A stretch of 19,260 bases of DNA, from the NCBI GenBank assembly GCA_902803345.1, contig CADCPV010000255.1, positions 1 through 19,260 of the forward strand, given 5' to 3'. Position numbers and translations under genes: made by a program. The notes below the pieces were generated by a model. The model was not told the DNA's origin. It worked only from the letters and a program-made list of their open reading frames with translations, and searched no databases. Within the stretch, counting starts at the first letter, position 1; each line of letters opens with the position of its first letter. Origin of the DNA: an uncultured Eubacteriales bacterium. Lineage in GTDB: Bacteria; Bacillota_A; Clostridia; Lachnospirales; Lachnospiraceae. Positions 6,752-8,173 of this stretch are shown in pieces.

Positions 6752-8173
6752 ATGGGCGGTTTTTTCGGCATGACCTCGAGGAAGGACTGCATTCCGGAAG
6801 TTTTCTACGGAACGGATTATCATTCACACCTTGGGACGCGGCGCGGCGGCATGGCCAGTACGAACCGCAGGACCGGTATGCAGCGCAAGATTCATGCGAT
6901 CGAAAACGCGCCTTTCCGGACCAAGTTCGAGCGGATTTTCGAAGAACTCTCCGGCAACGCGGCAATCGGCTGCATCAGTGATTTCGATCCGCAGCCGCTT
7001 CTGATCACATCGAAACTGGGAACCTATGCCATTTGTGTAGTCGGTATGATCAACAATGCGGATGAGCTGATTGCCGGAATGCTTTCAAGAGGCGCAAGCT
7101 TTGACGCGATGACCGGCGGCGCAATCAATTCGGTCATGCTGACAGCGGCTTTAATCGGCGAAAAGGATAATTTCGCTGACGGTATCCGGCATGCGCAGAT
7201 GAAGATCGAAGGCACGGCTTCGATCCTGATCCTGAAAGAGGACGGGACCCTGATTGCGGCAAGAGACCGGGACGGACGGCTTCCGATCCTCGTCGGAAAG
7301 AACGAGGACGGCTATGGCGTGTCATTTGAGTCTTTTGCGCTGCAGAAGCTGGATTTTGAACAGGTGATGGAACTCGGTCCCGGTGAAATTGTGGAAATCC
7401 ATCCGGAAGAAGCCTTCGTGCTGAAGCCGGCGCTCCCGAAGAAACGGATCTGTTCCTTCCTCTGGTCCTATTACGGTTATCCGACCTCAACCTACGAGGG
7501 ACAGAACGTCGAAGTGATGCGCTACCGGAACGGGCGGATTATGGCGCAGCACGACCAGGAGAGCGGAAAGGCACAGGATATCGATTATGTCGGCGGCGTT
7601 CCGGATTCCGGCACCCCGCACGCGATCGGCTACGCAAACGAATCGCGGATTCCCTTCGCACGGGCTTTCATCAAATATACGCCAACTTGGGCACGTTCCT
7701 TCATGCCGGTCAACCAGTCTGAGCGGAACCGGGTCGCGCATATGAAGCAGATCCCGGTCCACGACCTCATTAAGGACCAGAAGCTGCTTTTTGTCGACGA
7801 TTCGATTGTCCGCGGCACACAGCTCAAGGAAACGGTCGATTTCCTGTATGCAAACGGTGCAAAGGAAGTCCATATGCGTTCCGCCTGCCCGCCGATTATG
7901 CACGCCTGCAAATTCCTGAATTTCTCCCGTTCCACATCGGACAATGACCTGATCTCGAGACGCGTGATCCGGGAATTAGAAGGCGAAGAAGGGCTGGAGC
8001 ATATCGAAGAGTATGCAGACGGCAGGACCGAACGCGGCAGAAAGCTCCGGGAAACTATCTGCGAAAAGCTCCATTTTGCTTCTCTTGAATTCCAGACATT
8101 GGAAGGCGTGATTGACGCAATCGGGCTTCCGGAGTGCGAACTCTGTACCTACTGCTGGTCAGGAAAGGAATGA
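6752..8173 (+). CDS. purF: Amidophosphoribosyltransferase PurF with degenerate glutaminase domain
   Basis: A 473-residue PurF homologue, which forms phosphoribosylamine from PRPP and an amino donor. The phosphoribosyltransferase half is intact: GGVPDSG (281-287) and the PRPP loop FVDDSIVRGT (347-356). Cysteines at 234 (RICSF), 386 (HACKF), 462 and 465 (CELC) fall where Bacillus PurF has its Fe4S4 ligands. The N-terminal Ntn glutaminase half is present in length but not in residues: Met-Gly-Gly-Phe-Phe-Gly replaces Met-Cys-Gly, CISDF (74-78) stands where the substrate-binding RYST is expected, VGMINNADEL (97-106) where NGNL is expected, and the later Asp is missing. The R-G of HLGTRRGG remains. 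The gene starts two bases after purE. From memory, similar MGGFFG proteins occur in other gut Clostridia, so this looks like a stable subfamily, not a mutant. It probably uses ammonia or a partner glutaminase; that is inference. Confidence 0.9.
   Translation: MGGFFGMTSRKDCIPEVFYGTDYHSHLGTRRGGMASTNRRTGMQRKIHAIENAPFRTKFERIFEELSGNAAIGCISDFDPQPLLITSKLGTYAICVVGMINNADELIAGMLSRGASFDAMTGGAINSVMLTAALIGEKDNFADGIRHAQMKIEGTASILILKEDGTLIAARDRDGRLPILVGKNEDGYGVSFESFALQKLDFEQVMELGPGEIVEIHPEEAFVLKPALPKKRICSFLWSYYGYPTSTYEGQNVEVMRYRNGRIMAQHDQESGKAQDIDYVGGVPDSGTPHAIGYANESRIPFARAFIKYTPTWARSFMPVNQSERNRVAHMKQIPVHDLIKDQKLLFVDDSIVRGTQLKETVDFLYANGAKEVHMRSACPPIMHACKFLNFSRSTSDNDLISRRVIRELEGEEGLEHIEEYADGRTERGRKLRETICEKLHFASLEFQTLEGVIDAIGLPECELCTYCWSGKE

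Follow-up and report, generated by a model that had tools for sequence, protein, structure and literature searches.

The 19,260-nucleotide stretch of DNA analysed here (the window: contig CADCPV010000255.1, assembly GCA_902803345.1, from an uncultured Eubacteriales bacterium of the Lachnospiraceae) carries a complete purine operon in the order purE, PurF*, purM, a formate/nitrite-family channel, purN, a PurO-type inosine monophosphate (IMP) cyclohydrolase, an aminoimidazole carboxamide ribonucleotide (AICAR) formyltransferase, purD, a large purL and fhs. PurF*, as the product of the second gene is called here, is a PurF-fold protein of 473 amino acids (6752-8173, + strand), with a dead N-terminal nucleophile (Ntn) glutaminase half and an intact half for phosphoribosyl pyrophosphate (PRPP) and the iron-sulphur (Fe-S) cluster.

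The N-terminus of PurF* reads MGGFFGMTSRKD, a MGGFFG start without the nucleophile Cys; the codon for Gly2 (6755-6757), identified from the translation and from the N-termini of relatives, stands at the site of that Cys in canonical PurF. A ribosome-binding site, GGAGG (6740-6744), lies 7 nucleotides before the ATG. The nearest upstream in-frame stop is TGA at 6710-6712, and no earlier start could supply the Cys because there is no Cys codon between this stop and the ATG, which rules out a wrong start or frame. The original prediction, made from the sequence alone, had described a Gly after Met with a well-placed ribosome site and no alternative start, and this description holds.

The two motif changes that it listed are also present at the stated positions. 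The residues C74-I-S-D-F78 (6971-6985; ISDF at 75-78) replace the H-x-R-Y stretch of the glutamine loop, which is deleted, and VGMINN (97-102, 7040-7057; GMINN at 98-102) replaces HNGNLSN, so that the catalytic Asn is lost and the Gly retained. In the other half of the protein the PRPP loop DDSIVRGTQ (349-357) is encoded at 7796-7822, and four conserved Cys, which we take to be Fe-S ligands of the Bacillus subtilis type, at 7451-7453 (Cys234), 7907-7909 (Cys386) and 8144-8155 (Cys465 and Cys468, in C-T-Y-C). The NCBIfam PurF model TIGR01134 matched PurF* with 162.7 bits over profile positions 76-381, and its curated cut-off of 350 was not reached. The closest solved structures are B. subtilis PurF chains. 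PurF* resembles canonical PurF (EC 2.4.2.14; B. subtilis 1ao0/1gph, Escherichia coli 1ecb) in its whole predicted fold, PRPP loop, four Fe-S Cys and operon slot, and differs in lacking the nucleophile, the glutamine loop and two pocket residues, Asn and Asp.

Alignment columns were compared over 95 PurF* and 94 canonical-type PurF proteins from the fetched loci. The canonical rows were chosen for a CG start, so their Cys is present by selection; the nucleophile Cys was found in 96 of the 98 canonical-type proteins extracted, and the four dropped from the columns for want of a CG start were those of loci L066 and L072 (with Cys), L105 (cut at that point) and L109 (without Cys). The Arg and Tyr of the glutamine loop are present in 94/94 canonical proteins and deleted in 95/95 PurF*. 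The Asn of HNGN (94/94 canonical) is Val, Ile or Thr in all 95 PurF*, the Arg of HRGQE (94/94) is Leu in all 95, and the column of the Asp of TSDTE (94/94) holds no conserved residue in PurF*, which bears out the predicted loss of the pocket Asp. By contrast, the PRPP loop DDSIVRGT and the four Fe-S Cys are retained in 95/95 PurF*, as had been proposed for the window's protein. The N-domain of PurF* carries conserved motifs of its own, such as DYHSHLGT, and the internal Cys C74 (6971-6973) is kept in 92 of the 95, in a column that is His throughout the canonical rows (94/94).

The Cys is absent from every intact PurF* N-terminus that was read. Position 2 is Gly in 143 of 144 PurF* proteins (the window, 23 of 24 loci and 120 database proteins; one locus with a cut 5' end was omitted, and the single exception starts MTDVFFG and looks wrongly started). 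A larger set of 106 loci gave 97 readable PurF*, with Gly in 88, Ser in seven, a cut 5' end in two and Cys at position 2 in none; nine were not extracted. The loss is not a local mutation, as the original prediction had argued, because none of the 95 intact N-termini of relatives has Cys. A sequencing error or decaying pseudogene is ruled out by the conserved family. A separate case is L109 (genome G144), a purine-operon PurF above the family cut-off that starts MGVFG, has no Cys, reads GHVNY for GH-x-RY and has lost the loop Arg; it is apparently an independent loss of the glutaminase site, judged from its sequence.

The PurF* family is widespread. A database search gave at least 8000 matches, of which the best 120 span 462-476 amino acids. 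Twenty-four genome loci were fetched with patterns derived from the window's own PurF* protein; 20 are titled Clostridia or their families, three Coriobacteriia and one Solobacterium, many come from animal gut or rumen, and seven of the 24 genomes also have a canonical PurF above cut-off. In 21 of the 24 loci PurF* shares its stretch with a homologue of the window's PurE or PurM. In the Coriobacteriia loci (L019, L020, L023) PurF* stands outside any visible purine operon, with none of the window's other operon genes and with unrelated-looking neighbours.

In a survey of 197 genomes of one order, drawn evenly, PurF* was found in 107 and canonical PurF in 129 (canonical meaning above cut-off, with the Cys-less G144 counted). 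Both were present in 51 genomes, PurF* only in 56, canonical PurF only in 78 and neither in 12. Loci were sampled from 29 of the 56 PurF*-only genomes, and PurF* lay in a purine operon in 24 and not in five; its usual position is the purF slot between purE or purC and purM. PurF* is therefore probably the working enzyme in these genomes, as far as sequence can tell, because it usually fills the purF slot (24/29) where canonical PurF is lacking. The original prediction had counted a second, canonical purF as evidence against ammonia use. A search of 15 genomes from the genus in which the closest homologue (91% identity) occurs gave a PurF*-like match in eight, and five of these eight also have a canonical PurF. 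The idea stands despite this, since canonical PurF above cut-off is lacking from 56 of the 107 genomes with PurF*.

Where both genes are present, canonical purF is mostly a separate isozyme gene in a nitrogen cluster. In 38 genomes with the two genes apart, canonical purF had at least two nitrogen or glutamine neighbours in 26, one in three, a purine operon in three and neither context in six. Typical neighbours are genes for glutamine synthetase (GS), glutamate synthase (GOGAT), asnB, pyrG and carAB, as in L025 (GS III-amt-asnB-guaA-pyrG-purF-carA-carB) and L027 (gltB-gltD-purF). Among 40 canonical-only genomes sampled from the 78, canonical purF was in a purine operon in 30. With rows of neither context omitted (6/38 and 3/40), a raw Fisher test of nitrogen-cluster context gave 29/32 versus 7/37 (p 1.3e-9). 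In 13 of the 51 genomes with both genes the two are adjacent (for example, L112-L122, L070 and L071), in either order and with gaps of 33-308 bp, and in 12 of the 13 the pair lies within the purine operon.

Genes of nitrogen assimilation follow the same classes. GOGAT was found in 4/56 PurF*-only genomes, 46/51 with both, 48/78 canonical-only and 6/12 with neither, and the ammonium transporter Amt in 4/56, 33/51, 38/78 and 4/12, respectively. AsnA showed 44/56, 35/51, 37/78 and 9/12, counts uncorrected for kinship. A tree built from 73 of the 107 PurF* contained seven independent well-supported pairs differing in canonical PurF, all in the same direction for GOGAT; being the sole PurF thus goes together with loss of GOGAT. 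The suggestion that PurF* marks a subfamily of anaerobes living with high ammonia agrees with its occurrence in gut and rumen anaerobes, which often lack GOGAT.

Other glutamine amidotransferases are also reduced in many PurF*-only genomes. The cytidine triphosphate (CTP) synthase PyrG was meant as a completeness control; its own absence made it a finding, and alaS took its place. PyrG was detected in 8/56 PurF*-only genomes, 48/51 with both and 50/78 canonical-only, and a lax search for its synthetase domain still gave only 8/56. PyrG went undetected in 48 of the 56, which predicts that these bacteria either have a CTP synthase of an unrecognised, ammonia-using type or depend on salvaged cytidine. 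The alaS marker was above cut-off in 52 of the 56, with one more weak partial match, so the absences do not reflect gross incompleteness, and incomplete assemblies were rejected as the cause of PurF*-only status.

The synthetase domain of guanosine monophosphate (GMP) synthase was found in 43 of the 56 PurF*-only genomes. Its stop-to-stop frames were at most 370 amino acids long in 31, 393-455 in eight, full (at least 508) in 11 and cut in three, some genomes having two. Twenty-three PurF*-only genomes have a short GMP synthase without a full form, and none of them has PyrG, which is present in 8 of the 11 full-form genomes. Three of the GMP synthases (L200, L201 and L203, one of them from the 393-455 class) were read, and none has a glutaminase. 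When one short GMP synthase was used for a database search, nearly all of the 120 matches listed (P0121-P0240) had 326 amino acids and none had the Pfam domain of class-I glutaminases, PF00117; all 15 named rows among those listed are called glutamine-hydrolyzing GMP synthase.

Carbamoyl-phosphate synthase shows related losses. In gene rows of the form pyrC-carB-...-guaB-purE-...-PurF* (the pyr names being our assumption), carB follows pyrC and there is no carA; L124 and the partly cut L004 are from PurF*-only genomes and L007 from one with both PurFs. Pyrimidine genes and/or guaB were likewise seen upstream of purine genes in L124 (1725-12161), L142, L004, L007 and L130, with carB following pyrC and no carA where visible, and the L142 row extends to purL and a short guaA. 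In G070 (L204, 432-4967, - strand) the N-domain of CarA runs into CarB in one frame of 1511 amino acids after argF, with the glutaminase part missing, and in G113 (L205, 821-5243) a separate CarA N-domain of 140 amino acids, also missing the glutaminase part, lies between argF and carB, a full CarA being present as well. Judging from these sequences, an N-domain-only CarA with CarB may form a glutaminase-less carbamoyl-phosphate synthase. Three further PurF*-only genomes, G104, G130 and G158, have frames of about 1500 amino acids matching only the CarA N-domain. L206 belongs with L204 and L205 as a locus with CarA cut to its N-domain.

The remaining genes of the window operon are all on the + strand. 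PurF* is preceded directly by purE (6252-6749), whose homologues adjoin PurF* in relatives, and followed by purM (8170-9219; TIGR00878, 437 bits), the formate/nitrite-family channel (9235-9867; PF01226, E 1.8e-25), purN (9883-10530), the PurO-type IMP cyclohydrolase (10508-11230; PF07826, E 1.3e-55), a stand-alone AICAR formyltransferase (11242-12426; NF005492, 675 bits), purD (12450-13721), the large PurL (13721-17422; TIGR01857, 1820 bits), whose class-I glutaminase keeps GICNGFQ and GHSER, and formate-tetrahydrofolate ligase (fhs, 17444-19120). The family names of purE, purN, purD and fhs are presumed from their sequences. The channel, with fhs at the operon end, probably supplies formate for two formylation steps; a homologue was seen in 7 of the 24 relatives' loci (L002, L008, L009, L013, L015, L016 and L024). 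Rfam at gathering scores gave no RNA-element match in the window.

We consider it likely that PurF* is an ammonia-dependent PRPP aminotransferase (phosphoribosylamine synthase). Its C-terminal half would join free NH3 to PRPP to give phosphoribosylamine, and the former glutaminase domain would persist solely as a folded, constrained scaffold, perhaps with a part in ammonia entry or allostery. We infer catalysis, ammonia as the donor, the role of the dead domain and any regulation from the pattern of residues lost and kept, from the operon slot and from the genomes in which PurF* is the sole PurF beside a purine operon. PurF* may be the ammonia-side isozyme of a two-state system, serving as sole PurF under a constant abundance of ammonia; organisms that may face nitrogen shortage would keep canonical glutamine-using PurF too, its gene mostly grouped with those for GS and GOGAT and for further glutamine amidotransferases.

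The original prediction had left open whether ammonia or a partner glutaminase feeds the enzyme, and ammonia now appears the likeliest donor. According to the available part of PMC3376133 (Table 1), most ATP-dependent amidotransferases have a glutaminase partner or domain, and the conserved dead domain of PurF* could be the docking face for a separate subunit acting in trans, glutamine still being the donor. However, no ORF of the window operon is unassigned, and no extra amidotransferase was seen among the listed ORFs upstream of PurF* in five relatives, where not every ORF was family-searched. Moreover, many of the same genomes lack the glutaminase domains of GMP synthase and CarA, which points to less glutamine use and not to a shared glutaminase, so that a partner of this kind is unlikely, although one encoded at a distance may exist. 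The adjacency of PurF* and canonical purF in 13 of 51 genomes, matched by the closeness of archaeal PurF and PurF' (available part of PMC3261824), would suit a PurF* that is no enzyme by itself but serves canonical PurF as a regulatory or structural subunit; this is quite improbable given that 56 of the 107 genomes with PurF* show no canonical PurF that passes the cut-off and that PurF* has purine-operon neighbours in 24 of the 29 sampled.

An alternative catalytic Cys had also been named as something that an alignment might reveal, and C74, conserved where canonical PurF has His and accompanied by N-domain motifs peculiar to PurF*, is a candidate. An enzyme still using glutamine through such a rebuilt site is very improbable, since C74 is an internal residue, all 95 PurF* lack the Arg/Tyr loop and the pocket Asn and Asp are gone. 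PurF* loci outside purine operons would fit a product other than phosphoribosylamine, with purines coming from salvage or an unseen PurF, but the usual place of PurF* in the purF slot and its unchanged PRPP loop and Fe-S ligands leave this with hardly any probability.

Beyond PurF* itself, we lean towards the wider view that many gut and rumen Clostridia make their nucleotides mainly with free ammonia, by means of a coordinated set of enzymes stripped of glutaminase function. The set would comprise the dead-glutaminase PurF, a synthetase-only GMP synthase, carB without carA or with an N-domain CarA (fused or separate), and AsnA alongside. In relatives, a second set that depends on glutamine (canonical PurF, full-length GuaA, PyrG, AsnB and CarAB) would cluster with GS, Amt and GOGAT for times of nitrogen scarcity and may be gained or lost together.

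Several observations weigh against these interpretations. The glutaminase motifs of PurL are retained in the window and in 12 of 15 relatives (of the remaining three, two are truncated by the locus end and in L012 the frame breaks before the motifs), and therefore the purine pathway is not glutamine-free. CarA is retained in 22 of the 56 PurF*-only genomes (18 above cut-off). The GuaA and CarA survey covers the PurF*-only genomes plus eight chosen CarA controls with both PurFs, and so offers no proper comparison group for a link to PurF*; CarA was found in 8/8 of the controls, which test detection and not association because they were picked in the knowledge that most of their loci showed CarA. 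The independent-pair test for Amt on the PurF* tree (73/107) gave no significant signal. The placing of canonical purF in nitrogen clusters comes largely from one clade; with six context changes on the tree and only three independent pairs, none significant, it is supporting and not decisive. Five of the 29 sampled PurF*-only loci and the three Coriobacteriia loci lie outside purine operons, C74 might conceivably act as a new nucleophile, and the surveyed genomes are mostly fragmented assemblies. The evidence favours a shift of nucleotide synthesis to ammonia and does not prove it; PurF* as a family is real, widespread and coherent and, on its sequences, probably functional.

AsnA and AsnB, and likewise glutamate dehydrogenase and GS-GOGAT, are familiar pairs in which the nitrogen supply decides between an ammonia-type and a glutamine-type route to the same product; beta-lactam and carbapenam synthetases are AsnB-type enzymes of secondary metabolism. 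No such ammonia/glutamine isozyme pair was found for bacterial PurF in the literature searched. Single-domain NAD synthetase (NadE) is similarly a synthetase without a glutaminase and uses free ammonia in vivo (available part of PMC3376133), but it catalyses another reaction, and its glutaminase domain is absent whereas PurF* keeps a dead one. The same part of that paper surveys ATP-dependent amidotransferases across as many as about 800 genomes, and its table contains no glutaminase-less GMP synthase, CTP synthase or CarAB.

For a Cys-less PurF, only PMC3261824 was found in the literature searched, most subscription journals being outside it. As described in its available part, PurF' of Crenarchaeota lacks the N-terminal Cys, many having Ala or Val at the site, and lies near purine genes; every crenarchaeon studied also has canonical PurF, ammonia use is proposed as a suggestion only, and E. 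coli PurF is stated to remain able to use ammonia when its Cys is missing. Compared by this published description, PurF* shares with PurF' the missing N-terminal Cys and the clustering with purine genes, and differs in having Gly or Ser at the site and in being often the genome's only PurF. The idea of a Cys-less PurF is thus already in print, while the literature searched yielded neither PurF* as the only PurF of a genome nor the parallel loss of glutaminases in GMP synthase and carbamoyl-phosphate synthase.

Textbooks present purine and pyrimidine synthesis as built on the coupling of glutamine hydrolysis to channelled ammonia. In common bacteria of the animal gut this coupling seems to have been taken apart one enzyme at a time, and databases still label the glutaminase-less products as glutamine enzymes, as in the 15 named GMP synthase rows. 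Direct use of ammonia in vivo becomes testable, with growth and glutamine-analogue phenotypes predicted. The finding may bear on the dependence of rumen bacteria on ammonia, and it points to a missing CTP synthase.
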